Source of the DNA: Brasilonema angustatum HA4187-MV1
GTDB lineage: Bacteria > Cyanobacteriota > Cyanobacteriia > Cyanobacteriales > Nostocaceae
Reading direction: 5' to 3'
NCBI GenBank assembly: GCA_019359695.1
Contig: JAHHGV010000009.1
Coordinates: forward strand, 62,001-126,000
DNA length: 64,000 nucleotides
The notes under the pieces were generated by a model, which was not told where the DNA came from, did not search any database, and saw nothing but the letters and a program-made list of their open reading frames with translations. The position numbers were made by a program, and so were the translations under genes. Position 1 is the stretch's first letter, and each line of letters starts with the position of its first letter. This document shows, one piece after another, positions 25,729 through 49,271 of the stretch.

Positions 25729-25956
25729 GTTAGACAAATCAACAAAACAGGACGCAAAACATTTTCTTGTCTTTGTGATGCGTCTTCTGTGAACTCACTG
25801 GAGTTGGTCAAATCTTCTGTGGCTGCTTTTTTGGCCAACGTGATTGTTTTTTCGCTATAACCAACTCAAGTAGCACAACAGTCTAAGATTGAGTCCAGCG
25901 GTTTGCTCAACAGTCAATCTTCTCACTGCTAGTGGTGTCTGGAGCAAGCGAAAATC

Positions 25957-28314
25957 ATGCAAATCGACCAACTCAAACCCAATGTCATCGTTACAGGTTC
26001 AATCTTCAGCGAACCCGTACAGGTATTGATAATCATCCCGATGGGTGCATCAGTCAAACTCATCGGTCAAGGACTCAACACAAATCAAGTTCATCAACTC
26101 ATTCTCAATCCTTCTCAAGTAGCACAACTTCAAGCAACTCCAGACAAAGAACCTTTTGATGGTGACTCGCTGCATTTTCGCTTGGGTGTCGAAGCTTTGC
26201 GCCTGGGTTTAGCCTACGAATACGATCCCTTTTTTGCCCTCGCCATTGCTCGTGTTGATCCCCTACCTCACCAACTTGAAGCAGTATACAACTATTTTCT
26301 TAAACAACCGCGCATCCGTTTTTTACTCGCTGATGACCCCGGTGCTGGTAAAACTATCATGGCAGGGTTGCTACTGAAAGAACTTAAAGTTAGGGGGTTA
26401 GTTAAGCGTACTCTAATTATCACCCCTGCTAACCTGACATTTCAATGGCAGCGGGAACTTAAAGAGAAATTTCGCGAAGAGTTTGAGGTGGTTCGTGGTG
26501 ATGTGCTGCGGGCTAATTATGGTTCTAACCCTTGGAAAGAAAAACATCAGGTTGTCACCTCAGTGTCTTGGGTTTCCCGTATTGAAGATGCTAAAGATAG
26601 TTTATTAAGAAGTAACTGGGATTTAGTTATTGTGGACGAAGCGCACAAGATGAGCGCTCATAGTTCAGATAGGAAAACTTTGGCTTACAAGCTGGGTGAA
26701 GAACTTTCAAAACACACCGACCACTACTTATTAATGACAGCAACGCCCCATAAAGGTGACCCGAAAAATTTCTGTTTATTCCTCGAACTTTTAGACCGCG
26801 ATGTATACGGGGATGTCAAAAGTTTAGAAGAAGCAATGCTGCGCAACAGCGCCCCATTTTATCTGCGTCGCACTAAAGAAGCACTGGTTACTTTCCCGGA
26901 ACCAGAAACAGGTATTGTTAAGAAACTGTTCACTAACCGCAAAGTCGAAACAATTGATTTTCAGATTGATGCGGATGAGTTTGACTTTTACGACGACTTA
27001 ACAACTTATGTTGATGACCAGTCCATCAAAGCCTCTACTGATGATTCAGCGCGTGGTCGAGCTTTGGGTTTTACAATGGCAATGTTGCAACGTCGTTTCG
27101 CCTCCAGCGTTTATGCAGTGCGACGTAGTTTGGAGCGAATGCGAGACAAACGTCAAAGAATATTGGAAGATCCAAAGGCTTATCGCCAAGAGCAGATTAA
27201 TAAGAAAATACCAGAGGATTTTGATGAACTGACTGAAGAAGAACAGCAAAAAATTCTGGGAGATTTAGAAGGAGTTGTCGCTTCAATTGACCCCATAGCG
27301 CTCAAACAAGAAATACTGCAATTAAATAAATTAATCATCCAGGCTAAGAATTTAGAAGAGCGAGAAATTGAATCTAAGTTGGTGAGACTTAAGGAAGTTA
27401 TTACCCAAAAAGGAATCTTCCAAGACAAGAATATGAGACTGCTCATTTTCACTGAGCACAAAGATACCCTGGATTACTTGGTGGGTAAGTTACGAGACTG
27501 GAAATTGTCTGTTACACAGATTCATGGGGGAATGAAAATTGGCGACAGGGACACCCCCAATACTCGCATTTATTCTGAGCGGGAGTTTCGGGAAGATTGT
27601 CAGGTGTTAGTCGCCACGGAAGCTGCGGGGGAAGGTATAAATCTGCAATTTTGCTGGTTTCTGATTAACTATGACATTCCCTGGAATCCCGTGCGTTTGG
27701 AACAGCGGATGGGACGCATCCATCGTTACGGACAGGATAAGGATTGTTTGATTTTTAACTTTGTTTCTACAAATACCCGTGAAGGGCGGGTACTGTGGAA
27801 GTTATTTGAGCGCATCCGCGCCATTGAGGTAGACCTTGACCCGGAGAGAACGGGTAAAGTTTTTAACGTTTTGGGTGATATCTTTCCTGCCAATCAACTA
27901 GAGCGGATGATTCGCGATATGTACGCCCACAACTTGACTGAAGATGTGATTAAGAACCGCATCGTCGAGCAGGTGGACACCGATCGCTTTCGGCGGATTA
28001 GCGATTCGGCGTTGGAAGGTTTGGCGAAGCGCGAATTAAATCTAGCACCAATTGTGGGTAAGGCTGCGGAGGCAAAAGAACGACGTTTGGTGCCAGAAGT
28101 TATTGAGGACTTTTTTATTCAAGCGGCTCCTATTGCGGGAATTCATCCCAAGGAAAATGCGAAAGGTCAAAAAGTTTACCGGATTGGGCGAGTTCCACGG
28201 ACTTTGTGGGCGATAGGCGATCGCCTCGAATCCCGTTTTGGCAAGTTGGGACATGAGTACAAAAAGATTACGTTTGATAAAAATATATTGACAAATGACG
28301 CAACACTGGAATAG
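25957..28314 (+). CDS. SNF2-like helicase, N-terminal part (frame cut by in-frame TAG)
   Basis: 785 aa before a TAG at 28312-28314. The SF2 helicase core is complete: the Walker A variant LLADDPGAGKTIMAGLL, motif II IVDEAHKMSA, motif III LLMTATPHKGD, and the C-terminal RecA half with VLVATEAAGEGINLQFCWFL and EQRMGRIHRYGQ. The reading frame continues unchanged after the stop (ATLE, stop, VTPGHPLFECV) into the DUF3883 part ending at 29391. Related helicases have a Trp-Val-Thr-Pro-Gly-His stretch here, so TGG to TAG is likely. As written, the two parts would be separate proteins or the C-terminal part lost. It heads an operon with Uma2, methyltransferase and DUF499 genes, and probably translocates along DNA for restriction. 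Confidence 0.88.
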   Translation: MQIDQLKPNVIVTGSIFSEPVQVLIIIPMGASVKLIGQGLNTNQVHQLILNPSQVAQLQATPDKEPFDGDSLHFRLGVEALRLGLAYEYDPFFALAIARVDPLPHQLEAVYNYFLKQPRIRFLLADDPGAGKTIMAGLLLKELKVRGLVKRTLIITPANLTFQWQRELKEKFREEFEVVRGDVLRANYGSNPWKEKHQVVTSVSWVSRIEDAKDSLLRSNWDLVIVDEAHKMSAHSSDRKTLAYKLGEELSKHTDHYLLMTATPHKGDPKNFCLFLELLDRDVYGDVKSLEEAMLRNSAPFYLRRTKEALVTFPEPETGIVKKLFTNRKVETIDFQIDADEFDFYDDLTTYVDDQSIKASTDDSARGRALGFTMAMLQRRFASSVYAVRRSLERMRDKRQRILEDPKAYRQEQINKKIPEDFDELTEEEQQKILGDLEGVVASIDPIALKQEILQLNKLIIQAKNLEEREIESKLVRLKEVITQKGIFQDKNMRLLIFTEHKDTLDYLVGKLRDWKLSVTQIHGGMKIGDRDTPNTRIYSEREFREDCQVLVATEAAGEGINLQFCWFLINYDIPWNPVRLEQRMGRIHRYGQDKDCLIFNFVSTNTREGRVLWKLFERIRAIEVDLDPERTGKVFNVLGDIFPANQLERMIRDMYAHNLTEDVIKNRIVEQVDTDRFRRISDSALEGLAKRELNLAPIVGKAAEAKERRLVPEVIEDFFIQAAPIAGIHPKENAKGQKVYRIGRVPRTLWAIGDRLESRFGKLGHEYKKITFDKNILTNDATLE

Positions 28315-28344
28315 GTAACGCCAGGACATCCGTTATTTGAGTGC

Positions 28345-29391
28345 GTGAGGGATGATGTCTTGGTGCGGGTGCAGGAAGACTTGCGGCGAGGTGCTGTATT
28401 TTACGATTTGTATCGTCATCAGCCAGGGAGATTGGATGTGTTCAGTGCGGGAATTTCTGATGGACGCGGGAATAAGCTGCACGAGCGTTTGTATGTGATT
28501 CAAACTGAACTGGACGGTACAATGACGGTGCGCCAGCCAACGCTGTTTTTAGATTTGGTTCTTGCGTCGGGGAGTGCGGAGTACAGGGTAAGCGGTGCCG
28601 AGTTACCAGATGATAGTGCGCTACCCAGCCGCGATCGCGCAGAACAAGCTTTGATTGAACAGGAGTTAAATCGCTTTTTAACAGAGATTCGGACTCAGCG
28701 CCAAAAGGAAGTAGAGACGATTTCTCAGCACATGGAAATTAGCCTCAACACGATTATTGATAAAGTGCAGTGTCAGTTTGCTGAGTTGATTGAGCAAAAA
28801 GAATCCGGTTCTAAGGAAGCGGGGTTAGATGGACGCATCAAGCAGTCAGAAGACCGTTTGTTTGAATTAAACGCACGCCTAGAACAGCGTCGGGAGGAAT
28901 TGCAGCAGGAGGGTAGCTGTACCATCACGGATATTCGCCATCACGGACGTGCTTGGGTTTTACCGCACCCAGAACGCACAACGCCTGAAATTGCGCGGAT
29001 GGTTAGCAATGATGAGATTGAGCGCATTGCAGTTGAGGCGGTGATTGCATATGAAGAAGCTAGGGGATGGAAGGTGGTGAGTGTGGAGAAAGAAAATCGC
29101 GGTTTTGACTTGATTTCGCGTCAACCTCATCCCGAAGATCCACAGACAGCGATCGCCGTGCGGTTTATTGAAGTTAAGGGAAGATCTACAGTCGGTGAGG
29201 TGGCGCTGACGACTAATGAGTATAAAACAGCCGAAAGATTAAAACAGGATTATTGGTTGTACGTTGTGTTTAATTGCGCTTCTACCCCAGAAGTTCATCC
29301 TATAGAAGACCCAGTACGATTAGGATGGGAGCCGTTGGTGAAGATTGAGCATTATCACGTTTCTGCCCAGAAAATTTTAACAGCACAATAG
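28345..29391 (+). CDS. SNF2-like helicase, C-terminal part with DUF3883 domain
   Basis: 348 aa when started at GTG 28345; the same frame as the upstream helicase, separated only by one TAG. It has a beta-rich segment (RRGAVFYDLYRHQPGRLDVF), a long charged coiled coil (about residues 95-200), and a C-terminal DUF3883 domain: RIAVEAVIAYEEARGWKVVS, GFDLISRQ, VRFIEVKGRSTVGEVALTTN. The D...EVK spacing is that of a PD-(D/E)XK-like fold, so nuclease activity is possible. No ribosome-binding site precedes the GTG. It is best seen as the tail of a single 1145-codon gene (25957-29391), expressed only by readthrough, suppression or reinitiation if the stop is real. Confidence 0.8.
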   Translation: MRDDVLVRVQEDLRRGAVFYDLYRHQPGRLDVFSAGISDGRGNKLHERLYVIQTELDGTMTVRQPTLFLDLVLASGSAEYRVSGAELPDDSALPSRDRAEQALIEQELNRFLTEIRTQRQKEVETISQHMEISLNTIIDKVQCQFAELIEQKESGSKEAGLDGRIKQSEDRLFELNARLEQRREELQQEGSCTITDIRHHGRAWVLPHPERTTPEIARMVSNDEIERIAVEAVIAYEEARGWKVVSVEKENRGFDLISRQPHPEDPQTAIAVRFIEVKGRSTVGEVALTTNEYKTAERLKQDYWLYVVFNCASTPEVHPIEDPVRLGWEPLVKIEHYHVSAQKILTAQ

Positions 29392-29402
29392 GTTGTATAT
29401 TT

Positions 29403-29996
29403 ATGCAAGTACAAACACAAAAACGCTACTACACACCTGAAGAATATTTAGAACTTGAGGAAAAAGCAGAATATAAAAGCGAATACCGCGATGGAGAAAT
29501 CGTTTCACTGACTGGAGGAACTACAAATCATAATGAAATTGCACTGAATTTAGCAGCTTCCTTAAAATTTGCAGTGAAAGGGCAAAATTATCGAGTTTAT
29601 ATTGGTGATGTACGTTTATGGATACCGCGTTATCGTCAACATACCTATCCGGATGTGATGATAATTCAAGGACAACCTGTTTATACGGGAACAAATACAA
29701 CTACCGTCATGAATCCTTTGCTGATTGCAGAAGTTTTATCTAAATCGACTAAGAATTACGACCAAGGTGATAAGTTTCTCTATTATCGGTCTATCCCTGA
29801 ATTTCAAGAATATATTTTAATCGACCAATATCACTATCATGTTATGCAGTATGTAAAAACTGCAGAAGGTCAATGGTTATTTACTGAACTTGAAGGGGAA
29901 TCTGCAACTTTATCACTTCAAACGATTGATTTTGAAATTCAACTGAGCGACCTTTACGAGCAAGTAGACTTTACTGTCAGCAGTGAAGAAGATTAA
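29403..29996 (+). CDS. Uma2 family endonuclease (PD-(D/E)XK, formerly DUF820)
   Basis: 197 aa. Family marks are RYYTPEEYLELEEKAEYKSE, YRDGEIVSLTGGTTNHNEIA, VYIGDVRLWIPRYRQHTYPD with the catalytic-type Asp, and LLIAEVLSKSTKNYDQGDKF with the E-x-K-like part, so the nuclease core is intact. Uma2 proteins are very abundant in cyanobacteria and their biological role is unsettled. This copy begins 11 bases after the helicase stop and ends 36 bases before the methyltransferase, so it is transcribed with them. It could be part of the system or a passenger that inserted neatly between the genes. Confidence 0.9.
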   Translation: MQVQTQKRYYTPEEYLELEEKAEYKSEYRDGEIVSLTGGTTNHNEIALNLAASLKFAVKGQNYRVYIGDVRLWIPRYRQHTYPDVMIIQGQPVYTGTNTTTVMNPLLIAEVLSKSTKNYDQGDKFLYYRSIPEFQEYILIDQYHYHVMQYVKTAEGQWLFTELEGESATLSLQTIDFEIQLSDLYEQVDFTVSSEED

Positions 29997-30032
29997 TTGT
30001 TTTAATATTATTAACACATAATTATTAATGTA

Positions 30033-31478
30033 ATGCCGACGACACAATACCCCAAACGCCTCATTGAAGTTGACTTACCCATCAAGCGAATATCCGCCCA
30101 CGCACGGCGAGAAAAATCAATTCGCCACGGGCATATTTCAACGCTACATATTTGGTGGGCACGACGACCTTTGGCGGCGTGTCGGGCAGTCATTTGTGCT
30201 GCATTATGGCCAGATCCTGCTGACCCATTGTGTCCGGAGGCGTTTGTCAGTACGGCAAAAAAGCTGATGTTAAATTGGGCAAAAAATCATCCAGAAAAAG
30301 CTAGTGCTGATTCTTTCAATCGCTTAACAGCTATTAATAAAAATCCTCAGTTATTACACGACCCAGTAGAACTTCGCAAGACTCTGCTGGATTTTATAGC
30401 TGACTTTGCCAACTGGGACAATTCTACTGATGCAGATTATTTAGAAACCAGTCGTACTTTAACACAAACGGCACATGAAGCATTAGGCGGAATTCCCGGA
30501 ACAAAACCGTTAGTGGTTGACCCATTTGCTGGTGGTGGGGCAATACCTTTAGAGGCGTTGCGAGTGGGTGCGGATGCGTTTGCTTCTGACATTAATCCTG
30601 TGGCGGTTTTGTTGAATAAAGTGGTGTTGGAATATATTCCCAAATATGGGCAGCAGTTGGCTGATGAGGTGCGAAAGTGGGGACAATGGATTAAGGAAGA
30701 AGCAGAGAAGGAATTAGCTGAGTTTTATCCTAAAGACCCAGATGGGGCGACACCTATTGCTTATCTTTGGGCGAGGACTATTACTTGTGAAGGTCCTGGT
30801 TGTGGAGCGGAAGTGCCGTTAATGCGGTCTTTGTGGTTGTGTAAAAAGAGTAATCGAAATATTGGTTTAAGGATGATTCCTAAACCGGAAGATAGGCGGG
30901 TAGATTTTGAAATTATTGAAAAGCAGAAGAGTAAATGGGTAGTTGCTGATAACCCGGAAGTTGAAATAAAAAATCCTAGCTTGGATGGAACTGTAAAAAG
31001 AGGTTCGGCTACTTGTCCCTGTTGTGCTTATACTACTCCTGTAGCTTCGGTGAGAACACAATTAAAAGCCCGTCAAGGTGGGACGAATGATGCAAGATTA
31101 TTTTGTGTGGTGATAACTAAACCCAAAACTCAAGGAAGATTTTATCGCTTACCAAGTGAGGATGATTTAGAAGCAGTAAGAAAAGTAATTGATAAGTTAG
31201 AAAAACGTAAACAGGAACATAAAGGAGTATTAAATTTAGTACCGGATGAAATTTTACCAGTAATGAGTGGTGTATTTAATGCGCCCATTTATGGACTTAA
31301 TACATGGGGTAGTCTATTTAATTTTCGGCAATCTTTAGCGTTAATAATATTAGTAGAACTAGTACAAGATGTAGGAAAACATTTAACAAGTGAGCATGAG
31401 CAAGAATTAGTTTCCTCTGTTCAAACTTGTTTAGGGTTAGCTATTGATAGACAAGCTGATAAACTTTCTAGAATTTGA
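30033..31478 (+). pseudogene. DUF1156-type Zn-ribbon adenine DNA methyltransferase, N-terminal part
   Basis: 481 codons. The N-terminus is DUF1156 (KRLIEVDLPIKRISAHARRE, HIWWARRPLAACRAVICAAL). Then come AdoMet motif I in LVVDPFAGGGAIPLEALRVG and a zinc ribbon (CEGPGCGAEVPL and ATCPCCAY). The frame stops at 31478 just after LGLAIDRQAD. In this family several hundred further residues follow, including the DPPY catalytic motif. Here the sequence jumps instead to the family's C-terminal tail in another frame (31444-31944). So an internal deletion with frameshift removed the catalytic centre, and the enzyme should be unable to methylate DNA. It belongs to the operon with the helicase and the DUF499 ATPase. 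Confidence 0.85.
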
Positions 31479-31944
31479 TGCTGCCCGGAAAATCGCCCAA
31501 GGACTCGGCGCACATTTAGAAAATCTCAACCGCCTAGTAGAAGTTAAAGGCAACAAAGCGCGACTTCTACCTGTATCAGAGCGCACACACTACCTTTTTG
31601 GGAAAGACGAAGCCAAAGCACCTACCAAACGTAAAAAGAAAGATGTCAAGCAACTAAGCTTATTTGATATTGCTGGTAGCATAGAAGACGAGAACAATTC
31701 TTGGGGTGAAAAAACTGTACCCCCACTAGGAAACACTATATTAGACCGCATTCACCAAAGCATGATTTTATTTGCAGCCGGGCGCAGCGAAGCCCTCAAA
31801 CGTTTCTTAGTAGAAGAAGGTGCTGGTACTGACCAACGCTTTTGGCGATTAGCTCAAGCACTTTCAGCATTGTACCCCAACGGCACAGACGAGAAACGCT
31901 GGGTTGATGGTGTGTTAGCAAGAAAGAAGGGATTGGGATTTTAA
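31444..31944 (+). pseudogene. DUF1156-type methyltransferase, C-terminal fragment
   Basis: The family-like sequence starts at about 31467 with FLEFDAARKIAQGLGAHLEN and continues through LPVSERTHYLFGKDEAKAP, a Lys-rich linker, NTILDRIHQSMILFAAGRSE and the C-terminal DEKRWVDGVLARKKGLGF. This is the normal end of the large methyltransferases of this class. Codons before 31467 belong to the shifted frame of the upstream fragment. No separate start signal is seen, so this is a remnant rather than a gene of its own. The deletion junction lies within about 31450-31470, where the two frames overlap. Confidence 0.82.
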
Positions 31945-31963
31945 TTAAGTGGAGCATAACTCT

Positions 31964-32221
31964 ATGACCAGAGTGAGTCTAGATTTACCCGAAGAAGTAT
32001 TCTCAGCCCGTCGTCTTCCCCCAGATGATTTTGTGCGTGATATGCGCCTTGCTGCCGCTATATACTGGTATCAAAAGGCTGAAGTCTCTCAGGAAAAAGC
32101 TGCCCAAATTGCAGGTTTAAACCGCCGCGATTTTCTTTGTGCACTTGCGCGGGAACAAGTAGATGTGTTTTCTGTAGACTTTGATGACTTGCAACAAGAG
32201 TTAAAGCGCGTCCAATTTTAG
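31964..32221 (+). CDS. UPF0175 family protein (antitoxin-like)
   Basis: 85 aa from ATG 31964, nine bases after GGAG; an upstream GTG at 31949 overlaps the methyltransferase spacer and is less likely. Sequence features are SLDLPEEVFSARRLPPDDFV, MRLAAAIYWYQKAEVSQEKA and AQIAGLNRRDFLCALAREQV, a ribbon-helix-helix/HTH-like layout typical of UPF0175. In cyanobacteria this family is commonly paired with a DUF3368 PIN-like toxin gene just downstream. Here only the last 24 codons of such a partner follow, so the antitoxin-like protein is orphaned. It sits between the methyltransferase tail and the DUF499 gene. Confidence 0.82.
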   Translation: MTRVSLDLPEEVFSARRLPPDDFVRDMRLAAAIYWYQKAEVSQEKAAQIAGLNRRDFLCALAREQVDVFSVDFDDLQQELKRVQF

Positions 32222-32295
32222 AACAATTGCGTCTATGTGGAATGTATCTTTCTGACCGAGTGATGAATCAAGCACTAGCATTAGTAGGGGAATAA
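32221..32295 (+). pseudogene. C-terminal remnant of a DUF3368 (PIN-like toxin) gene
   Basis: Reading from 32221, overlapping the last base of the UPF0175 gene, gives EQLRLCGMYLSDRVMNQALA then LVGE and a stop. This resembles the C-terminal end of DUF3368 proteins, which finish with a pattern like G-x-x-[IL]-S-D-x-[VL]-x-x-x-x-L-x-x-[VA]-G-E. No start codon or upstream part remains. The piece is only 24 codons, so identification rests on pattern and on the usual UPF0175-DUF3368 gene order. Confidence 0.55.
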
Positions 32296-32298
32296 ACG

Positions 32299-35160
32299 AT
32301 GGCAGCAATCAAACCTTGGTATAAAATCGACGGTTTAATACCTCGTGAAGACTTGCGGGAAGGGAAACCCCTTGATGCTTCTGAGTTTGCTGTCCACCTC
32401 GACAAGGTACGAGACGAAACCGCCCCTTCTGATTATAAAGAGCCAGAACGTTTTTTTGACCGTACTTATCTCACTAAATATTTAACCGACCTTGCAGCCC
32501 AAGTGGTGCGCCGTCTTTCAGGCGAGAAAACGGAAACTTCGCCAGTGTTCAATCTCGCTACCCAGTTCGGCGGCGGTAAAACTCACGCCCTGACTTTGCT
32601 TTATCACTTAGCCAAACACGGTGCAGCGGCTAACAATTGGACAGGAGTCCAGAAAATACTGCAAAAAGCGGGAATTTCATCAATACCAGAAGCTGCGATC
32701 GCTGTGTTTGTCGGTACAGAATTTGATTCTATTAAAGGACGCGGTGGTGACGACGGTACACCTCTACGCAAAACACCGTGGGGAGAAATCGCTTACCAGC
32801 TAGGCGGTGCAGAAGCTTTAGCTGTGCTTGCTGAACATGAAGCTCAATTTATTGAACCCAAAGGCGATGTCATCCGAAAATTTCTCCCCAAGGATAAACC
32901 CTGCCTGATATTAATGGATGAAATTATTAATTATGCTAGTACTTATCGCCGTAAGGGTTTTAATAACTACCTATACAACTTTATTCAAGCACTATCTGAA
33001 ACAGCGAGAAGTTTAGATAATGTTGTTTTAGTGGTTTCGATTCCTGCCTCAGAGATGGAATACACCACGGAGGATGAAGCGGATGAGCAACGTTTCAAGA
33101 AAATGCTCGATCGCGTGGGCAAAGCGATAATTATGTCCGCCGAGTCAGAAACATCCGAAATTATTCGTCGCCGTTTGTTTGAATGGGAACCTGGTGCTGT
33201 CACCGCCGATGGCAGAATTCTCTTACCCAAAGATGCAATTAACACCTGCAATGAATACGCTGAGTGGGTAGTTGAACACCGACAGCAACTTCCGAGTTGG
33301 TTTCCCCTAGACAATGCTCGTGAAGCTTTTTACACCACATATCCTTTTCACCCAACAGTACTATCTGTCTTTGAGCGCAAATGGCAAGCCTTACCACGCT
33401 TCCAACGCACTAGGGGAGTGCTGCGACTTCTGGCACTTTGGGTATCAAATGCTTATCAGCAGGGTACCATTCGCGCACACCGTGATGCTTTAATTAGTTT
33501 AGGCACAGCACCACTGGATGACCCCCAATTTCGAGCAGCGGTGTTTGAACAATTAGGCGAAACCCGTTTAGAAGGTGCGGTGACAACAGATATCTGCGGC
33601 AAAAGAGATTCCCATGCAGTGCGTCTGGATGCTGAAGCTGTGGACGTAATAAAAAAACCCAGGCTGCACCGCAAAGTCACAACAACGATATTTTTTGAAT
33701 CTAACGGTGGCTGTACGCGCACGGAAGCCACTGTTCCTGAAATTCGGCTAGCAGTAGCGGAACCGTCTTTGGATATTGGGAATGTGGAAACCGTTTTGGA
33801 AACACTTTCAACTGACTGCTATTATCTCTCGATTGAAAAAAACAAATACCGCTTTAGCTTGTCGCCCAATCTAAATAAAATTCTGGCAGATCGCCGTGCT
33901 AACGTCCAAGCAGCCAGAATGACCGAACGAGTCAAAGCCGAAATTCAGAAAGTTTTTGTCGCAAGTCTTGGAATTCAACTCGTTTATTTTCCCGAAAATT
34001 CCAGTGCTGTTCCCAATCGAGCAGTGCTAACAATAGCTATACTAGCGCCTGAGCATTCCATGCAAGACAGTGAAACTGTAAAATTTGTGGAAACGATGAC
34101 GCGGGAGTATGGCACATCAGACCGTACTTTTAAGAGTGCCATAATTTGGGCAGTTGCTGACTCTGATGCCCAGCTACGAGAGGAAGCACGTAAGCTGCTT
34201 GCATGGGAAGACATCCGCGACGAAGAACGCGAACGACTCGACGACTCCCAGAAGCGCCAGTTGGATGAGAACCTGAAAAAAGCGGAACGTGACTTAAAAG
34301 AATGTGTTTGGCGTTCTTACAAAAATATTGCACTGCTAGGTAAAGATAACAAAATCCGCACTATAGACTTGGGCATGGTCACATCCAGCATGGCACGTAC
34401 TATGGTTGAGTTGATTGTCAACCGTTTGCGTCAGGATGGGGATGTTGAAGATAGTATCAGCCCTCGCTTTATTGTACGCAACTGGTCGCCTGCATTTACA
34501 GAATGGAGTACTAAGGCTGTCCGCGATGCCTTTTTCGCTTCACCGCTGTTTCCTCGCTTGTTGAATGGGGATGGGGTAAAGGAGGCGATCGCCCGTGGTG
34601 TAAGAGATGGTATCCTCGCCTATGTTGGTAAAACTAGCACTACACACTACGAACCGTTCCAATATCAGTGTACCATCAGTTCCGCCGATATAGAAATCTC
34701 TGACGATGTATTCATCATCACCCAAGAGACTGCGGAAGCTTACAAAAAAGCCGAATTGGCTCAAGATGCTGACACACCAATCCCATCATCCCAGACTCAA
34801 ACGGGGGAAACAAACACTAGCACCCCTGCTACCACAGTCAGCGTGACGACTTCTACAACTCATGTTGTCAGAGATGTTACCACTCCCTATGTCACAAACA
34901 CTGCTACTCAACCAACAGAAATAACTCCCCCACCTGCTGAAGCGCAAGTGCTGAAGTGGAGTGGCGCAATTACACCTCAGAAGTGGATGAACTTCTACAC
35001 AAAGGTTCTTTCTAAATTTACTACCAATAAAGATTTGAAATTGACTATAAAAGTATCCGTTTCCGTTGAGGGGAATATTTCTACTCAGAAGATTGAAGAA
35101 ACTAAAGTGGCACTGCAAGAATTGGGATTGGAGGGTGATATTGAGACGGATATAAATTAA
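32299..35160 (+). CDS. DUF499 (COG1483-type) P-loop ATPase
   Basis: 953 aa. The N-terminal ATPase has a Walker A variant in NLATQFGGGKTHALTLLYHL and Walker B in KPCLILMDEIINYAS, followed by the conserved VLVVSIPASEMEY region. The middle has helical and beta parts (TTIFFESNGGCTR, YYLSIEKNKYRFSLSPNLNK), and the end carries a Thr/Pro-rich linker (about 830-890) before a small alpha/beta tail. DUF499 ATPases accompany Zn-ribbon adenine methyltransferases and helicases in predicted defence modules, where they are thought to drive remodelling or target recognition. The frame is intact and begins four bases after the toxin remnant, with GGGGA eight bases before ATG. It is the last gene of the operon. 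Confidence 0.9.
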   Translation: MAAIKPWYKIDGLIPREDLREGKPLDASEFAVHLDKVRDETAPSDYKEPERFFDRTYLTKYLTDLAAQVVRRLSGEKTETSPVFNLATQFGGGKTHALTLLYHLAKHGAAANNWTGVQKILQKAGISSIPEAAIAVFVGTEFDSIKGRGGDDGTPLRKTPWGEIAYQLGGAEALAVLAEHEAQFIEPKGDVIRKFLPKDKPCLILMDEIINYASTYRRKGFNNYLYNFIQALSETARSLDNVVLVVSIPASEMEYTTEDEADEQRFKKMLDRVGKAIIMSAESETSEIIRRRLFEWEPGAVTADGRILLPKDAINTCNEYAEWVVEHRQQLPSWFPLDNAREAFYTTYPFHPTVLSVFERKWQALPRFQRTRGVLRLLALWVSNAYQQGTIRAHRDALISLGTAPLDDPQFRAAVFEQLGETRLEGAVTTDICGKRDSHAVRLDAEAVDVIKKPRLHRKVTTTIFFESNGGCTRTEATVPEIRLAVAEPSLDIGNVETVLETLSTDCYYLSIEKNKYRFSLSPNLNKILADRRANVQAARMTERVKAEIQKVFVASLGIQLVYFPENSSAVPNRAVLTIAILAPEHSMQDSETVKFVETMTREYGTSDRTFKSAIIWAVADSDAQLREEARKLLAWEDIRDEERERLDDSQKRQLDENLKKAERDLKECVWRSYKNIALLGKDNKIRTIDLGMVTSSMARTMVELIVNRLRQDGDVEDSISPRFIVRNWSPAFTEWSTKAVRDAFFASPLFPRLLNGDGVKEAIARGVRDGILAYVGKTSTTHYEPFQYQCTISSADIEISDDVFIITQETAEAYKKAELAQDADTPIPSSQTQTGETNTSTPATTVSVTTSTTHVVRDVTTPYVTNTATQPTEITPPPAEAQVLKWSGAITPQKWMNFYTKVLSKFTTNKDLKLTIKVSVSVEGNISTQKIEETKVALQELGLEGDIETDIN

Positions 35161-35220
35161 GATTCAATTAAGGGTAAGGTAAGGGTTTGTGTCAGGGGTA
35201 ATTGATCATACACAAGTTTG

Positions 35221-40530: not shown

Positions 40531-42207
40531 TTATGGGCGTTGAATAATTGTTTCCACTATGCGGCGTTTAGCTTTTGGCTCAATACCAATAAGTCGCACG
40601 TACTCCCCTTGGTATTGATCTAAATAGTTTTCTAATGCTGCGGCGGCTTGTTGTGCAGAACGAGTCTGAATTTGCCCAGCGCTTGACCACGAATTTATGC
40701 GAAAACGTCGCTGGTCTACGTGTTCTACACTAATGTTATACCCACCATTGATGAGTTGCTGTAGCTGTTCTACTACATCGGAACTGAGGCGGTTACTGGT
40801 TGCTGTTCCTGTTGCTCTGGCAGAATAATTTACCGGCACCCCCGCTGAAGCACTGCCTGTAGACTTATAACTGTCGGATGAGCCAACTGGACCGTTAGGA
40901 CGTTGGATAATGCTTTCTAATACGCGCCGTTTTGCCTTGGGGTCAATACCAATCAAGCGTACGTACTCACCTGGATGATTTTCCATACATTGTTCCAATG
41001 CGCTAACAGCTTCTCTTGTGGAAGTGACGTCAATGGACTGGCAGCTTTGCCATGAACCTGTACGGAAGCGACGCTCATCTACGTGTTCTGTACCAATTTT
41101 ATAACCAGAGCCAAGGAGTTGTTGTACTTGGTCTACAGTTTCGCCACTGAGTTTACCACTACCACTGCCGTTGCTGTAGCTATTGCTGTAAGTATTATCG
41201 TTATAGCTTCTGTTTGTTTGATTGGTATGACCTTTGAAGTTAGTAGACGGATTATTTACGACTCCATCTGGGCGTTGGATAATGGTTTCTAACACGCGCC
41301 GTTTACCCTTGGGGTCAATGCCAAAAAGACGAACATACTCGCCGCTGTGACTGGTCAGACAATCTTCCAAAGCTGCGATCGCCTCACCAACTGACCTTGC
41401 TTCTATTGGTGTACAACTTTGCCAAGAGCCAGTACGGAACCGCCGCTGATCTACGTGCTCTGTACCAATTTTATACCCTTGATTTAACAGATAACGTACT
41501 TGATCGACTGTTTCAACACCCAAGCTACTTCTTGCCACGTCATTACTCCTTTCAAACCCATTATTGCTTGTATAAGATTTAGTCAATTCCTTCCGAACAG
41601 TATTTATACACATACTATCCTCAGCACAGATGTAACCAGAGCGTAATGCCTGATTAATCCCAACGACATGATGAGCAAATTGTTTATCGTTTGCTTGCAC
41701 ATCTGGTAAGCGATCAGCTTGCTGCTGGGTCGTTATTATTGCTCCTGAAGGTACGTATTTACCTGGTGGAATTTCCACATCTTGAATCAGAGCATGCATC
41801 ATCACGATGCAACCTGCTCCTACTCTGGCGTTGAACACTGTGGAGCGAAAGCCAATGAAGCAATTATCCCCAACATAAGCTGGTCCATGAATGAGCGCCA
41901 TGTGAGTAATTGATGCACTAGTGCCAATCCATACCGAGTACTCATTTTGGTCATCACCAATGACTCGACCTTGGTCCAACCCATGAACCACGACACCATC
42001 TTGAATGTTAGTGTTTTCACCTATGTGAAAGGGTGTACCTTCATCAGCTCTAATGGAAGTTCCCGGAGCAACCATTACATTTGCGCCTACAAATACATCC
42101 CCAATAATGTTGGAAAAGGGATGCACAAACGCTGTTTCATGGATGTTTGGCTCAGCTAAACTTTTTGACCACGGGGTTGGGGGTGCCGCCGTGCTGCGGA
42201 CTACCAT
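40531..42207 (-). CDS. ccmM: Carboxysome organiser CcmM
   Basis: 558 aa from ATG 42207, which follows AGAGGAGG; the 13-codon extension to 42246 contains that site and is not expected to be translated. Residues 1-205 are a gamma-carbonic-anhydrase-like beta-helix ([57 protein letters not shown]) with the zinc-binding His pattern. Three Rubisco-small-subunit-like (SSUL) repeats follow at about 240-315, 355-430 and 475-555. Each contains EHVD(Q/E)RRFR. Repeats 1 and 2 carry a Cys pair (WQSC ... EDC or EQC), and repeat 3 has none. CcmM condenses Rubisco through the SSUL modules. An internal GTG start (41538) should give the short form. Confidence 0.95.
41536..41550 (-). promoter_or_regulatory. 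Internal ribosome-binding site and GTG start for short CcmM
   Basis: On the minus strand AAAGGAG lies seven bases before GTG at 41538, codon 224 of ccmM, reading [15 protein letters not shown] straight into the first SSUL repeat. The predicted product (40531-41538) is 335 aa with three SSUL repeats, matching the known short CcmM isoform (M35) of beta-carboxysomes, which starts at an internal GTG in Synechococcus elongatus. Confidence 0.75.
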
Positions 42208-42269
42208 CGTTAGATTCCTCCTCTGTTCTCCTTTGTAAAAACTCATTTGTTTACAGCTAATGACCCAAC

Positions 42270-42800
42270 GGGAAAGTCCAACGGGAGAGCCAGTTGCGCC
42301 CGCAGGAGGAGCCAGTACAGCAAGCGCGTAGTGTGGTACGAAGTGCCATAGGAGGGGAGCGTCGATTGCGAAGATCGAAGTTCCTCTGAAAGAGACACCC
42401 CCGCTCTATGGCGTTCCGCCACGCCTTACGGTGAGTCCAGCGCTGCTTTGCGGGTCTCCCTCCGGAGCCACTTCTGTGCGGGGGTTTCCCCCGTTGAAGA
42501 ATGTGGCGTCAGGCGACTGGCGGAGCGCGTTAGCTCCGGCCCCCTTAGGGACTAGCGGAACCGTTCGGCACGGAGCCGTGCCCGTTAGGCGCAGCCGTGG
42601 CGTTAGCCATAGGGCTCAGGTTCTCCCCGGAGGGCTATCGCAGCGTGACGGTTAGCGCACCGGGCAAGGCAGTGCATAGGTCATCTCCGGAGGGCTTCCC
42701 GCAATCTGTCGCAGGTGGCATTTTTCCTCACTTGTATCTAGCGTTGGAAACCCTTAAAGCAGCGTGCGCTGCCCTTACCAGTCCCCAAAGCGGGGGAAAC
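42270..42800. repeat. GC-rich repeat block between ccmL and ccmM
   Basis: About 530 bases of GC-rich mosaic repeat without coding content. Shared words: CACGCCTTACGGTGAGTCCA with 23.58 kb, GGCGGAGCGCGTTAGCTCCG with 38.59 kb, and GTGGCGTTAGCCATAGGG with 10.48 kb. Open frames here are artefacts of the repeat. The ccmL-ccmM spacing in this window is therefore about 640 bases. Confidence 0.7.
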
Positions 42801-42849
42801 GTTGGTGCATAGCCCTGGCTCACTAATGACTCATAACTATCATGATTAT

Positions 42850-43149
42850 CTAATACTGGTCTTTTTTGCTGTAAATCACGCGGTCTTTAACATGGACTGT
42901 ATCAATTATTGCCACCACTGCTGCGTCTACTGGACGTTGTTCGTTGCCCAGAACTTGACGGGCGGCACTACCGCGACTAATAAGTACCCACTCATCTACT
43001 CCCGCACCCACACTATCAGCAGCTACCTCGTATTCAGGCAAAACTTGTCCTTCTTCATCTACTAATTGCAACAGCAGTAGCTTGACACCTCTTAGACTTG
43101 GGTCTTTTTGAGTGCTCACTACTGTGCCGCGAACTTTCGCAATTTGCAT
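42850..43149 (-). CDS. ccmL: Carboxysome vertex protein CcmL
   Basis: 99 aa, single EutN/CcmL (BMV) domain: QIAKVRGTVVSTQKDPSLRG, VKLLLLQLVDEEGQVLPEYE, AADSVGAGVDEWVLISRGSA, and VDAAVVAIIDTVHVKDRVIY. CcmL forms pentamers that close the twelve vertices of the carboxysome shell. ATG 43149 follows the ccmK stop (43156) by six bases, so the two are translated from one message. Length and motifs are complete. Confidence 0.96.
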   Translation of the reverse strand: MQIAKVRGTVVSTQKDPSLRGVKLLLLQLVDEEGQVLPEYEVAADSVGAGVDEWVLISRGSAARQVLGNEQRPVDAAVVAIIDTVHVKDRVIYSKKDQY

Positions 43150-43155
43150 GACAGA

Positions 43156-43500
43156 TTATGGTCTTCTGCCGAAAGGACGAATTGCGTTCACATTCTCCCG
43201 GAACTGTTCTACATCTTCTGTATAACGAATTGGCAACACATATTCCAGGTTTTCGTGAGGACGAGCAATGATGTGGGTAGACAGCACTTGTCCACCATTG
43301 ACTCGCTTGACTGATTCAACCCCAGCAGCAACTGAAGCTTGTACTTCCGAAACATCTCCCCGTACAATCACGGTTACGCGACCGCTACCAATTTTTTCGT
43401 AGCCTACTAAAGTCACGCGGGCAGCTTTCACCATTGCATCTGCTGCTTCTACTACCGCAGGAAACCCCAAAGTTTCCACCATTCCTACTGCAATTGACAT
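43156..43500 (-). CDS. ccmK: Carboxysome shell protein CcmK (longer paralogue)
   Basis: 114 aa from ATG 43500, preceded by AAAGGA; a 12-codon upstream extension exists but lies before that site. One BMC domain, [60 protein letters not shown], and a basic tail (AIRPFGRRP) that the second copy lacks. It forms hexamers with a central pore in the shell facet; the pore-lining loop contains GSGRV, as in CcmK1/K2. The extra tail is like CcmK1. Confidence 0.94.
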
Positions 43501-43681
43501 AAGTTTAAATCCTTTGTTTTTAAGATTTGAATACAACCAAAGCCCAATACGACAACCTCAACAATAATTTCAGATTTTTCAAGCCGTCAGCACTTGGGCT
43601 GTTGGCTGAAAGCTTGATTCCATGCAGTTGCTTTTTGCCGCTTAGTCCGACCGTTGCACTGCTGACGAAAATCCAAAATTG

Positions 43682-43990
43682 CTAAGTACGGAACTGCTCC
43701 ACGGCTTCGGTGTAACGAATTGGCAGGACATATTCCAGGTTTTCGTGAGGACGAGCAATAATGTGAGTGGACAGTACCTCACCGCCATTCACTCTTCTAG
43801 CTGCTTCCACTCCAGCCGCAACAGAAGCTTGCACTTCAGAAACGTCTCCTCGGACAATCACAGTCACCCGAGCGCTACCGATTTTTTCATACCCTACTAG
43901 AGTAACGCGAGCGGCTTTCACCATCGCATCAGCAGCTTCAACGACTGCCGGAAACCCTTTTGTTTCAATCATTCCAACCGCAATTGGCAT
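43682..43990 (-). CDS. ccmK2: Carboxysome shell protein CcmK (major type)
   Basis: 102 aa BMC protein almost identical to the downstream copy over the domain ([40 protein letters not shown]), ending at VEQFRT without the basic tail. It is probably the main facet hexamer, CcmK2. It differs in the pore loop (GSARV in place of GSGRV). ATG 43990 follows GGGAG by six bases. It is the first gene of the minus-strand ccm cluster; its promoter lies in the 628-base gap shared with ndhF4. Confidence 0.93.
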
Positions 43991-44618
43991 CGCATAACTC
44001 CCACAAATTTACTGCAATATGTACTCTCAGGTGGAAAATTTTCTACGGGGATGCTCATCTTGAGATCTAAAACCTTTCCCAAATTAAGCATAGAAAAGCT
44101 TGGCGTCCCTGACAATATAAATTACCATAATAGTTTATAATAAAATCAATTAATAAAAATTAATATTACTGGATAACGGCAATTCTGCTCAACCGAACTT
44201 CACAGATTCCTAGAGCAGACACTTCTGTTTTATAATTTTTTTATACTATCTGTAGCAAACAGGTTAATAAAGGTGCAAATTCTGCCTCAAGAGGAATGAC
44301 GCAAAACTTAAGGAGTGTTAGGACAGTTCTTCCTTGGCTGTTACTCTTTGTACAGACAATCAGAATAAAGTATATAATTTTTTATTATCTACCTGCTCAA
44401 ATAGATGATCAAAATCATCTATTTTTGCTGTAAAAATAAAAACAAGTAAGGATAATAAAAAAAATATTATGAATCTTATTAGATTTTTGTTTGTGTTTTA
44501 GATACAAACAATGAAATAATTAACTGTAAAAAAACAATGTTTAAAAGTAGAGAGTAGGAGAAATCATTTCCTAAAGTGAAAAAGTAATTCTTGCTCGCAG
44601 TTATAAAGGAATATTTGA
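43991..44618. promoter_or_regulatory. Divergent regulatory region ccmK2 / ndhF4 with palindrome
   Basis: 628 AT-rich bases between the divergent ccm and CO2-uptake operons. At 44399-44424 lies a perfect inverted repeat with 11-bp arms, AAATAGATGAT-type left arm and ATCATCTATTT-type right arm (core ATAGATGAT, CAAA, ATCATCTAT). Such symmetric AT-rich sites suit LysR-type binding, and CmpR is encoded next to the cluster, but the site could equally be a weak terminator because a short T run follows. No ORF is credible here. Confidence 0.45.
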
Positions 44619-46475
44619 ATGAATCAGATTCTGTTTTCAACAAGTTGGTGTATACCTTTTTATGGGTTAATAGGTGCCCTGTTGACTTTACCGTGGGCAA
44701 TAGGATTAATTCGGCGCACAGGACCAAGACCAGCCGCTTATATCAACTGGTTAATGACTTTTTTCGCTTTCCTCCACAGCTTATTCGTATTCGTTGATAT
44801 TTGGAATACAGAATCACAAACTTTTTTGATTAACTGGTTCAAAGCAGGGGATTTTGACATATCCTTCGCTTTAGAAGTTTCGCCAATTACTGTAGGGACA
44901 ACAGTTTTAATTACAGGGTTAAGTTTACTGGCTTTAACTTACGCCCTTGGTTACATGGAAAAAGACTGGGCGATCGCGCGTTTCTTTGGGCTGATGGGAT
45001 TTTTTGAAGCAGCGCTGTGTGGCTTAGCTATCAGTGACTCTTTATTTCTCAGCTATGCCCTTCTTGAAATGTTAACTCTTTCGACTTACTTGCTGGTGGG
45101 TTTCTGGTATGCTCAACCGTTAGTCGTCACAGCAGCACGAGATGCATTTTGGACCAAGCGAGTGGGAGACTTGTTGCTGCTGATGTCAGTTGTGACGCTC
45201 TCTACCATAGCAGGTAGCTTAAACTTTTCTGACTTGTATGAATGGGCGCAGACGGCAGATTTAAATTCAACAACATCAACTTTATTAGGTTTAGGGCTGA
45301 TTGCAGGACCTGCAGGTAAATGCGCTCAATTTCCGCTACATTTGTGGTTAGATGAGGCGATGGAAGGTCCCAACCCAGCTTCAGTGATGCGAAACTCCTT
45401 GGTGGTGGCTGGTGGGGCGTATGTGTTGTTTAAACTACAACCAATTTTAGCGCTGTCGCCAGTCGCATTAAATGCTTTAATCATCATGGGTACAGTCACC
45501 GCAATTGGTGCATCGTTAGTGGCGCTGGCTCAAATTGACATCAAACGAGCAATGTCTCACTCCACAAGTGCATACATGGGGTTAGCGTTTTTGGCAGTTG
45601 GGATGCAGCAAGGAGGAGTTGCTTTGATGCTGCTACTAACTCATGCCATTGCCAAAGCACTCTTATTTATGAGTTCTGGAGCAGTTATATTTACGACCAA
45701 TACTCAAGATTTAACCGAAATGGGGGGTCTGTGGTCAAGGATGCCAGCAACCACCACAGCTTTTGTTGTCGGTTCTGCTGGAATGGTGACACTGCTACCA
45801 CTAGGAAGCTTTTGGGCAATGTTAGGATGGGCTGATGGCTTGGCTTTGGTTAGCCCTTGGGTTGTTGGTGTGTTAGTGGTGGTCAATAGTTTGACGGCAT
45901 TAAATTTGACACGCCTATTTCGCTTAATATTTTGGGGTCAACCACAACCAAAGACCCGTCGCACTCCAGAAGTAGGTTGGCAGATGGCATTGCCAATGGT
46001 AACGCTGACGGTAATGACTTTGTTATTACCCCTGATGCTACAACAATGGTATCTCTTACCTGATTGGGAAAGTATAAATTGGATTGTCGTGACATTGTTA
46101 GTATCCTCTGGAGCGCTGGGGATAGGGGTAGGGTCTAACATCTATCTGCACAAAGCTTGGTCGAGATCTAGAGTTCTTACTTGGAGATTTTTGCAAGACT
46201 TGTTAGGTTATGACTTTTACATTGACCGACTTTATCATGTGACAGTCGTTAGTATAGTCGCGGTGCTTTCTAAAATTTCAGCATGGAGCGATCGCTATCT
46301 GGTAGATGGTTTCATTAACTTAATTGGGTTTGCAACAATTTTTGGTGGACAAACCTTAAAGTACAGCATTTCTGGTCGTTCTCAAGGATACCTGTTGACC
46401 ATTCTTGTAGGCGTTAGTCTCCTAGGTTTTCTCGTCAGCTGGTCATTAGGCTTACTGAATATCTTGCCATTCTAA
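44619..46475 (+). CDS. ndhF4: NDH-1 subunit NdhF (CO2-uptake type, NdhF4-like)
   Basis: 618 aa with about 15 membrane helices. Antiporter-like core: YALGYMEKDWAIARFFGLMG, LLEMLTLSTYLLVGFWYAQP, GPAGKCAQFPLHLWLDEAME followed by GPNPASVMRNSLVVAGGAYV, and DIKRAMSHSTSAYMGLAFLA. The MEGPNPAS reading (instead of MEGPTPVS) is a feature of the CO2-uptake subunits rather than respiratory NdhF1. With NdhD4 and CupB next door it forms the NDH-1MS' type complex that turns CO2 into bicarbonate on the thylakoid. Assignment to the NdhF4 rather than NdhF3 branch rests on the short Cup protein. Confidence 0.88.
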   Translation: MNQILFSTSWCIPFYGLIGALLTLPWAIGLIRRTGPRPAAYINWLMTFFAFLHSLFVFVDIWNTESQTFLINWFKAGDFDISFALEVSPITVGTTVLITGLSLLALTYALGYMEKDWAIARFFGLMGFFEAALCGLAISDSLFLSYALLEMLTLSTYLLVGFWYAQPLVVTAARDAFWTKRVGDLLLLMSVVTLSTIAGSLNFSDLYEWAQTADLNSTTSTLLGLGLIAGPAGKCAQFPLHLWLDEAMEGPNPASVMRNSLVVAGGAYVLFKLQPILALSPVALNALIIMGTVTAIGASLVALAQIDIKRAMSHSTSAYMGLAFLAVGMQQGGVALMLLLTHAIAKALLFMSSGAVIFTTNTQDLTEMGGLWSRMPATTTAFVVGSAGMVTLLPLGSFWAMLGWADGLALVSPWVVGVLVVVNSLTALNLTRLFRLIFWGQPQPKTRRTPEVGWQMALPMVTLTVMTLLLPLMLQQWYLLPDWESINWIVVTLLVSSGALGIGVGSNIYLHKAWSRSRVLTWRFLQDLLGYDFYIDRLYHVTVVSIVAVLSKISAWSDRYLVDGFINLIGFATIFGGQTLKYSISGRSQGYLLTILVGVSLLGFLVSWSLGLLNILPF

Positions 46476-46512
46476 TCCCTTGTTCTGTGTTCACCTTACC
46501 TACTTGTTGCCT

Positions 46513-48015: not shown

Positions 48016-48101
48016 AAGACTGTTCTTAGGTTTGTAAGATGTGCCCAAATACATACTACAAACCTAACTTTTAATATGTATTTTAAGTAGGAGATATAGC
48101 A

Positions 48102-49271
48102 ATGGTAAACATAAAAGATAAACCTGTTGACTATCCATTATTTGAATATATCGAGCGATTAGAGTCAGGAGGGGCATTACTTCCTGATACCGAAGAAAAT
48201 CTGATAGAAGTCGTCGGTATTCTGAAAAGTTACGGCATCGTTTTAGATGCTTACTCTAAAAATCTCATTTATGTTGCTGAACATCAATTTTTAGTATTTT
48301 TCCAATTTTGGAAATACTTTAATGGAGACTTTTCTTTTAAGAAACTATTTCGGCATTGGTGGCATGACAGAATAAATTTTGAATATGCCGAATATTGCAT
48401 GAAAGGCATGATATGGCATGGTGGCGGTGGATTGGATCAATACTTAGATTCAAAAGAATTTGAAGAAAGAGCACAAGCTGTTATTGCAGCAAAATTTAAA
48501 AATAATCCTATCATCAAGGGAGTTAACCAACTTTTCCCTGATTTCTTAACAGAACAATTGCGTCTCAGTTCTTACTCCACGGGTTTAGGTCAATTTTGGC
48601 GTGTGATGGCTGATATTTTCCTCACTTTATCAGACCGTTATGATCAAGGTGAAATCAAATGTATTCCTGATGTTGTAGAACACGTCAAAGCAGGTTTGGT
48701 AGCAGATGCCAATAAGCCTATTACCTACGCCGTTAAAATTCGGGATAAAGTTTACGATATCATTCCTAAATCTGCTGGTTTGACATTTCTTGCAGATACA
48801 GCAATCCCTTATGTAGAAGCAGTTTTCTTCCGGGGAACAGCTTTTCATGGCACAGTTTCATATAACGCCCAAGCTTATCAAATTCCCGCAGATCAATCTC
48901 GATTTCAATATGGTGCTTTGTATGCCGATCCTTTACCAATTGGCGGTGCGGGTATTCCTCCTACTTTGTTGATGCAAGATATGCGTCATTATCTTCCAGA
49001 TTATTTGCACGAAGTTTATCAGCGCAGTCGTCGGGGAGAAGATGATTTGCGAGTTCAAATTTGTATCAGTTTTCAAAAGTCGATGTTCTGTGTGACTACA
49101 GCGACGATTTTAGGACTTATGCCTCATCCAGTGGATACTCAAAATCCAGATGAGCAAAAAATGAATCGAGTCTTTCTGCAAAAGTGGCTTGATAGGTTAA
49201 AGACTTCGCGTTTGGAACAGGTGAACGATCAGTCTAATTTTTGTCTTATCTCTGTACCTAAGATGATGTAG
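48102..49271 (+). CDS. cupB: CO2 hydration protein CupB (ChpX-like)
   Basis: 389 aa soluble protein of the ChpXY/Cup family. Conserved parts: FFQFWKYFNGDFSFKKLFRH followed by WWHDRINFEYAEYCMKGMIW HGGGG, and LFPDFLTEQLRLSSYSTGLG QFWRVMADIFL, and the late segment LLMQDMRHYLPDYLHEVYQR. Cup proteins bind the NdhD3/4-NdhF3/4 arm and carry a zinc site that hydrates CO2 vectorially. A length near 390 aa fits CupB (constitutive) better than the longer CupA. The start follows GGAG by eight bases. Third gene of the operon; a gap of 86 bases separates it from ndhD4. Confidence 0.88.
   Translation: MVNIKDKPVDYPLFEYIERLESGGALLPDTEENLIEVVGILKSYGIVLDAYSKNLIYVAEHQFLVFFQFWKYFNGDFSFKKLFRHWWHDRINFEYAEYCMKGMIWHGGGGLDQYLDSKEFEERAQAVIAAKFKNNPIIKGVNQLFPDFLTEQLRLSSYSTGLGQFWRVMADIFLTLSDRYDQGEIKCIPDVVEHVKAGLVADANKPITYAVKIRDKVYDIIPKSAGLTFLADTAIPYVEAVFFRGTAFHGTVSYNAQAYQIPADQSRFQYGALYADPLPIGGAGIPPTLLMQDMRHYLPDYLHEVYQRSRRGEDDLRVQICISFQKSMFCVTTATILGLMPHPVDTQNPDEQKMNRVFLQKWLDRLKTSRLEQVNDQSNFCLISVPKMM

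Follow-up and report, generated by a model that had tools for sequence, protein, structure and literature searches.

A decaying Hma operon with uma2 and a UPF0175 gene as likely cargo in Brasilonema angustatum HA4187-MV1

The 8.5-Mb genome of the cyanobacterium Brasilonema angustatum HA4187-MV1 (assembly GCA_019359695.1) contains a run of plus-strand genes that resembles the restriction-like Hma systems and is broken in several places. We analysed the 64,000 nucleotides in which it lies (contig JAHHGV010000009.1, positions 62,001 to 126,000 of the forward strand), here called the window, and all positions are those of the window. In order, the genes encode an SNF2-type helicase with a NOV_C/DUF3883 tail, a Uma2 protein, a DUF1156 protein in two pieces, a UPF0175 protein and a DUF499 ATPase; open reading frames (ORFs) and Pfam matches agree in gene content, order, strand and coordinates with an initial annotation made from the sequence alone. 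Very probably, the window holds a dead Hma (Type-1 BREX-related) operon that is part-way through its loss, with uma2 and the UPF0175 gene as its cargo. Loci and genomes used for comparison are given by L and G numbers.

The operon and its three lesions

The following features were mapped.

25871 to 35170, plus strand: transferable operon unit, compared by blastn with L032, L033 and L034; homology to L032 spans these limits
25957 to 28314, plus strand: first 785 codons of hmaA (SNF2-type helicase core), ended by an in-frame TAG; HmaA profile, 526 bits
28315 to 29391, plus strand: post-stop frame of hmaA with the NOV_C/DUF3883 nuclease-like tail; PF13020, E 4.8e-21; HmaA profile positions 818-1132
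29403 to 29996, plus strand: uma2, intact, in the hmaA/hmaB gap; PF05685, 107.9 bits; 96% identity to L032 and to the G387 remnant
30033 to 31478, plus strand: N-terminal part of hmaB, aligned to relatives; PF06634, 81.4 bits; HmaB profile, 213 bits
31463 to 31475, plus strand: junction of the hmaB deletion, with change of frame, from comparison with L032
31463 to 31944, plus strand: C-terminal part of hmaB, out of frame with the N-terminal part; 97% identity to the L032 HmaB C-terminus
31949 to 32221, plus strand: UPF0175 antitoxin-like gene; PF03683, 83.1 bits; 94% identity to L033 over residues 6-87
32203 to 32295, plus strand: remnant of a DUF3368 (PIN-type) toxin gene, residues 132-161; 93% identity to the end of the intact gene L033:7388-7873
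32299 to 35160, plus strand: hmaC, DUF499 AAA+ ATPase, intact; HmaC profile, 411.7 bits over positions 3-925; dN/dS (ratio of nonsynonymous to synonymous divergence) 0.075-0.124 against three relatives

PADLOC profiles name the core trio as HmaA (526 bits, with 79 bits for the piece after the stop), HmaB (213 bits) and HmaC (412 bits). The HmaA and HmaC matches span most of the length, HmaB is matched in several stretches, and the genes stand in the order A-B-C on one strand. The nearest named relatives of HmaC are in Scytonema drafts (96% and 92% identity), and cysteine pairs are visible by eye in the alignment of the DUF1156 protein HmaB, which the initial annotation described as having a putative Zn-ribbon. 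We take the N-terminal hmaB piece to comprise DUF1156, an S-adenosylmethionine-binding region and part of the target-recognition region. That last part (window 30800-31460, compared with L032, L034, L035, L038 and L070) looks mosaic: the N-terminus is ~95% identical to L032, identity then drops sharply, and likeness to other relatives follows, which suggests an exchange of sequence specificity.

In the parts covered here, PMC8565338 gives the name Hma to a system of helicase, methylase and ATPase, and PMC12839542 describes the same DUF499-centred trio as Type-1 BREX-related (BR), with HmaA as helicase, HmaB as N6-adenine methyltransferase and HmaC as ATPase. The window operon shares with PADLOC's Hma the three profiles, their order and strand, and differs from it in being broken in hmaA and hmaB and in carrying uma2 and UPF0175 between the core genes. 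Common to it and to Type-1 BR are the DUF499 AAA+ ATPase of the HmaC clade, the DUF1156-bearing homologue of the N6-methyltransferase HmaB, and the SNF2 helicase with a C-terminal nuclease-like (restriction endonuclease-like) domain, NOV_C, though this is split off by the stop codon. A catalytically complete HmaB is missing; because the region with DPPY is deleted, we file the operon as a decayed relic of the Hma family and not as a working member. The initial proposal of a decayed restriction-like module of helicase, methyltransferase and ATPase was therefore sound, and profile matches identify that module as Hma.

A link to DISARM class 1, also raised at that stage on the likeness of an SNF2-type helicase with an adenine methyltransferase, is not supported. 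Against cut-offs of 610 and 950 bits, the DrmD models reach 347.8 and 209.1; the helicase fits HmaA better than PADLOC's DrmD and DrmA models (DrmA, 212.6 bits); and the other genes of the operon, to which the scan was confined, match no separate DrmA, DrmB or DrmC. Canonical BREX was likewise rejected, since none of the families listed for the operon (for the helicase, the best 25 of 53) is PglZ.

Damage at two points had been proposed initially; the damage is real and the count was too low, since three lesions were mapped. The first is an in-frame TAG at 28312-28314 that severs the helicase core of hmaA from its nuclease-like tail, the frame being open again from 28345 to 29391. In all 42 relatives that passed the filter (L054, with a short end piece only, fell below it) this position is a sense codon for one identical residue. 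The second is an out-of-frame deletion of ~1.1 kb in hmaB, by which ~363 residues, DPPY included, are lost relative to the intact L032 protein. Of the 995 residues of L032 HmaB, the window matches 1-473 and 837-995; the middle is gone and the frame is shifted, the C-terminal piece lying in an ORF (31444-31944) of a different frame from 30033-31478. DPPY is present in the missing part in nine of nine relatives aligned, and no second hmaB was found in the genome assembly, only the two window pieces. The third lesion, at 32205-32208, is the absence of ~395 bp relative to L033, which removes residues ~1-131 of the DUF3368 toxin and alters the final few residues of the UPF0175 protein. By blastn, window 31463-32208 corresponds to L033 6646-7388 and the window from 32205 onwards to L033 from 7783 onwards, so that the two matches overlap by 4 bases at the junction. 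A search of the deletion ends gave no repeat pair, though a repeat consumed by the deletion would be invisible. Only hmaC, uma2 and the antitoxin gene are essentially whole. These lesions support the earlier view that the strain displays the loss of the module and not its action. A Dolichospermum hmaB (L037:7833-8958) also seems to have lost a large internal stretch, a different one from that of the window.

That the operon is in truth whole and the damage an artefact of assembly or base calling seems very improbable. The hmaA lesion is a lone stop codon, and L032, the closest draft relative, shows several frame breaks that are possibly errors; set against this, the other two lesions are losses of ~1.1 kb (hmaB) and ~0.4 kb (DUF3368), which are too large for base-calling errors, and the assembly is 99.7% complete. 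The core pieces give a dN/dS of 0.04-0.12 against L032, 0.06-0.09 against L033 and 0.06-0.11 against L034. Because these pairwise values are low, hmaA, hmaB and hmaC were probably under selection until recently, and their decay is probably recent.

Recent decay also bears on whether the shortened operon still works in another, methylation-free role, either through HmaC with the 785-residue helicase or through Uma2 with the antitoxin. The frames of hmaC, uma2 and UPF0175 are open, and some relatives (for example L044) have hmaC with no detectable hmaA or hmaB within the stretch examined. As the decay is probably recent, however, intact frames do not show selection; the catalytic region of HmaB is gone and the stop separates HmaA from its nuclease-like tail, and missing neighbours in draft contigs say little. 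We consider such a role improbable.

Two gaps with exchangeable genes

Relatives were chosen by a related hmaC, the best 80 of 145 being kept (79 distinct). Many are draft metagenome genomes, in which gene breaks may be errors, and early contig ends partly limited the measurement of gaps; with the window included, 43 hmaA/hmaB and 66 hmaB/hmaC gaps were measurable (42 and 65 in relatives alone). All three core genes are intact in 30 of the 35 relatives that could be fully assessed. Gene by gene, the numbers of relatives with an intact copy are 77 of 79 for HmaC, 40 of 42 for HmaA and 46 of 65 for HmaB; among the 19 remaining HmaB, 14 have no detectable N-terminus or lie at a contig edge, one (L082) is a double copy counted as broken, and four look broken.

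Genes of at least 150 nt fill, window included, 35 of 43 hmaA/hmaB gaps and 56 of 66 hmaB/hmaC gaps. The ORF sets leave aside most ORFs below ~80-90 residues, the hmaX group described below and the second hmaB of L082, and families were tallied from 25 of 34 in the first gap and 25 of 45 in the second. Among the 57 ORFs of the first gap are seven AAA_15 ATPases, six HD, four DarT, four macrodomain, three PRTase-CE, three NADAR, three Uma2 (window included), two Fic and two Schlafen-type proteins. The 52 ORFs of the second include seven UPF0175, five DUF3368, four PIN, four AAA_16 and three 23S_rRNA_IVP proteins, with BrnT, PemK, HepT-like, Uma2 and others as singles. In either gap, many ORFs have no match to a toxin-antitoxin or effector family. 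Related operons are also plasmid-borne: 132 plasmid records have an HmaC match, and of seven with at least 60% identity that were looked up, six carry gap genes (VapC/PIN, nucleotidyltransferase, AAA ATPase, Uma2 and hypothetical proteins); the seventh, from Calothrix, is the L042 record and has no annotated hmaB beside hmaC. Taken together, these counts, made without a random-gap baseline, suggest that the Hma gaps hold exchangeable genes, many of them of toxin-antitoxin or effector type.

A Uma2 nuclease within this gene set was initially singled out as a possible component, and its recurrence in intact operons was proposed as the check. The outcome named in advance as contrary to membership, intact operons that regularly lack Uma2, was the one obtained, and Uma2 proved rare: it occurs in two of 42 hmaA/hmaB gaps and one of 65 hmaB/hmaC gaps of relatives, and of the 30 intact cores only that of L065 (Planktothrix) has it, there in the hmaB/hmaC gap, unlike the window. 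The two relatives with Uma2 in the hmaA/hmaB gap, L032 and L046, each have at least one broken core gene, and L033 retains a 3' remnant of uma2 in that gap. In the relatives with Uma2 or a remnant of it in this gap (L032, L046, L033 and L133) the core is broken in all, as in the window; the cases are few and at least some are drafts.

A phylogenetic tree of Uma2, which included 27 free copies from a longer list, placed the window, L032 and G387 copies in one clade (100/99). The L046 copy groups with free copies elsewhere (99/99), and the L065 copy lies far away on a very long branch, so that its placement is unsure. The Hma label changes three times on the tree, at least two of the changes being forced by well-supported branches, and in none of 200 bootstrap trees (0%) does it change only once. 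Free copies, here and below judged on at most 1.5 kb on each side, are up to 84% identical to the window's Uma2 with no Hma genes within ~1.5 kb, and so are nearer to it than the L046 copy (66%). This genome alone has 55 Uma2 matches, 54 of them above the cut-off. Between the window and L032, synonymous divergence (dS) is 0.08 for uma2 and 0.17-0.45 for the core pieces; as the uma2 value is far lower, its history is partly separate from that of the core. Hence Uma2 looks, from sequence comparison, like exchangeable cargo drawn more than once from a large family, and the plausible view of it as a fixed component is corrected.

The opposite position, that Uma2 is a functional part of a cyanobacterial Hma sub-type and supplies DNA cutting, for example in place of hmaX or of the HmaA tail, we regard as unlikely. 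In its favour, Uma2 stands in the Hma gaps of several cyanobacteria: the window, L032, L046, L033 as a remnant, and Planktothrix. In the last, beside L065, Uma2 is annotated in the second gap on two plasmids, and a gene of the same size occupies the same place on a third, a pattern that counts toward some selection for Uma2. Further, hmaX, present in 25 of 79 loci, is in none of the three Uma2-bearing relatives L032, L046 and L065, too few to weigh. Against it stand the rarity of Uma2, its repeated gains or losses of the Hma label with free copies nearer than that of L046, the 55 matches in one genome and the low synonymous divergence of uma2 relative to the core.

The UPF0175/DUF3368 pair of the second gap was also considered as a fixed Hma part and rejected. 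In a tree with 24 free copies of the 42 matches listed, Hma-linked UPF0175 proteins are intermixed with free ones, with seven changes of label, at least three of them forced. The pair resembles the PADLOC candidate PDC-S70 in its intact UPF0175 gene, the DUF3368 end piece and the usual order, and differs from it in that the window toxin is mostly deleted, leaving residues 132-161 only, and that the pair lies inside an Hma operon. Three free UPF0175 genes (L198, L201 and L202) have a DUF3368 partner matched only in part, L202 retaining residues 1-41 and 133-161; such toxin loss beside a retained antitoxin may be frequent. L196:219-1764 has a UPF0175 gene with 80% identity to that of the window close to a Uma2 gene, and the stretch examined contains no Hma gene; this proximity may be chance.

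Standalone nucleases inside Type-1 BR loci are described in the covered parts of PMC12839542, so the idea of auxiliary effectors is already published. Its main text, to which coverage was confined (the supplements lie outside it), makes no mention of Uma2, UPF0175, DUF3368, NADAR, DarT, PRTase or ADP-ribos-. In the literature searched, which excludes most subscription papers, we recognised no account of Uma2 in Hma.

Mobility, chromosomal site and a course of decay

Homology to L032 runs from 25871 to 35170 and the flanks differ beyond these points; because the homology is bounded and the surroundings are different, the operon seems to move as one unit. It sits between mgtE and a DUF4139 gene. 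Between the same neighbours, G387, of the same genus, has 42 nt of hmaA, the last 80 hmaA residues and an intact uma2 that is 96% identical to the window's; hmaB and hmaC are absent from this interval. G386 and G395 have other genes there. From window to G387, dS is 0.05 for uma2, 0.15 for the hmaA end piece and 0.24 for mgtE; as the first two are below the value for mgtE, the fragment seems to have a younger common history than the surrounding chromosome. The space left by the Hma core in G387 (L133:12960-13681) holds minus-strand genes that by eye look like a PIN toxin paired with an antitoxin.

In the scheme that the covered parts of PMC12839542 give for an intact Hma system, HmaB probably N6-methylates the cell's own DNA, and HmaC with HmaA finds and cuts unmarked phage DNA. 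We propose that the two gaps, hmaA/hmaB and hmaB/hmaC, take in exchangeable toxin-antitoxin pairs, nucleases and other likely effectors, which probably serve as back-up. In the window the first gap holds uma2, and the second once held the UPF0175 antitoxin with a DUF3368 RNase-type toxin. As it now stands, the operon would no longer restrict DNA. Uncoupling of the nuclease probably preceded or accompanied the loss of methylation, since a host that lost methylation first should be harmed. The UPF0175 antitoxin would then be a harmless leftover, and Uma2 may outlive the operon, as in G387, where nearly all of the core is gone and uma2 is intact at the same chromosomal site. The window offers a view of what a restriction-like system loses first and what persists longer.

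Several observations weigh against a dead operon carrying mere cargo. The TAG in hmaA could in principle be a base-calling error, and a product may arise from an internal start codon past the stop. HmaC alone may keep some function, its gene being whole in nearly all relatives (77 of 79). The dN/dS of uma2 against its two close copies, 0.26-0.35, is above that of the core. Finally, the cargo role of Uma2 and UPF0175 is drawn from gene order and trees and not from function.

HmaB fusions and hmaX in relatives

Of 47 HmaB starts tested, seven have an N-terminal extension of at least 60 residues. In six, the extension is a fused ADP-ribosyl-DNA-hydrolase-type domain, a DarG-like macrodomain in three and NADAR in three, in a single unbroken frame with DUF1156; the seventh, L096, has a 95-residue extension without a family match. 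The macrodomain fusions (L066:4098-8339, with a DarG match of 203.7 bits; L074:5123-9400; L101:5704-9942) have a DarT gene directly upstream, together with an HD domain in L074 and L101. The NADAR fusions (L089:5820-9560, L097:5535-9359 and L098:5160-8969) have a PRTase-CE gene in that place. In L106, genes for macrodomain, DarT and HmaB are present but unfused.

Hma relatives thereby share with the DarTG and DarT-NADAR systems (PMC11543638 and PMC11125620, in the parts covered) a DarT beside a macrodomain protein and NADAR as presumed hydrolase. They differ in that, in six loci, hydrolase-type domain and DNA methyltransferase form one fused protein, and that the partner in three of these is PRTase-CE, not DarT. 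The pairing of PRTase-CE with NADAR hints at an adduct formed by the first and removed by the second. We recognised no paper on such HmaB fusions within the literature searched; the parts of PMC12839542 covered (supplements excluded) do not describe them, and a word search of two NADAR papers and two on NAD/ADP-ribose systems found no mention of a methyltransferase, nor, in the first two, of a fusion or of DUF1156.

It is tempting to speculate, and we hold the idea as possible rather than probable, that Hma is a chassis for exchangeable toxins whose release is tied to the state of its own methyltransferase, the window being a dying, cargo-bearing member. The gaps flanking hmaB would capture toxin-antitoxin pairs, and the most integrated forms would weld the antitoxin to HmaB. 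A fused HmaB would combine methylation of the cell's DNA with removal of ADP-ribose, or of a related adduct, from that DNA, and loss or inhibition of HmaB by a phage would free the toxin. If this is true, the antitoxin-HmaB fusion would be a guard mechanism in which inhibition of the methyltransferase releases the toxin, the pairing of NADAR with PRTase-CE would predict that PRTase-CE modifies nucleic acid bases, and the pattern of swappable cargo and fusions would give a functional hint for the PRTase-CE family and hmaX.

The gene that we call hmaX encodes ~194 conserved residues in its 25 loci (for example L038:9409-9993) and lies directly before hmaC where its position is seen; it was not found in the window. 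Among 386 cyanobacterial genomes, 11 have an HmaC of at least 56% identity over most of its length, and three have strong hmaX matches, each adjoining hmaC; a fourth has a weak match of 29 residues only. We have seen hmaX only in Hma loci. Neither Pfam nor PADLOC families match the protein, and no PDB sequence was hit in a profile search. Its structure model (predicted local distance difference test, pLDDT, 88.5) has no Foldseek match at E<=0.001, the best being an acetyl-CoA carboxylase domain at 3.6e-3 with a template modelling (TM) score of 0.32. By eye, the order of helices and strands in the model, with invariant D78 and E97/E99, resembles a PD-(D/E)XK fold, for which the fold search gave no match. 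The parts of PMC12839542 covered, supplements excluded, do not describe hmaX.

Of the window's other contents, ten proteins were scanned and no defence gene was seen among them. A scan with Rfam gave no match, promoter-like sites are at the level of shuffled sequence (15 against 16.3), and terminator-like sites barely exceed it (13 against 9.8, standard deviation 3.7). Downstream of the operon, window 40531-49271 holds what we take to be carboxysome-type and CO2-uptake genes, with RuBisCO small-chain repeats, proton-antiporter subunits and ChpXY.

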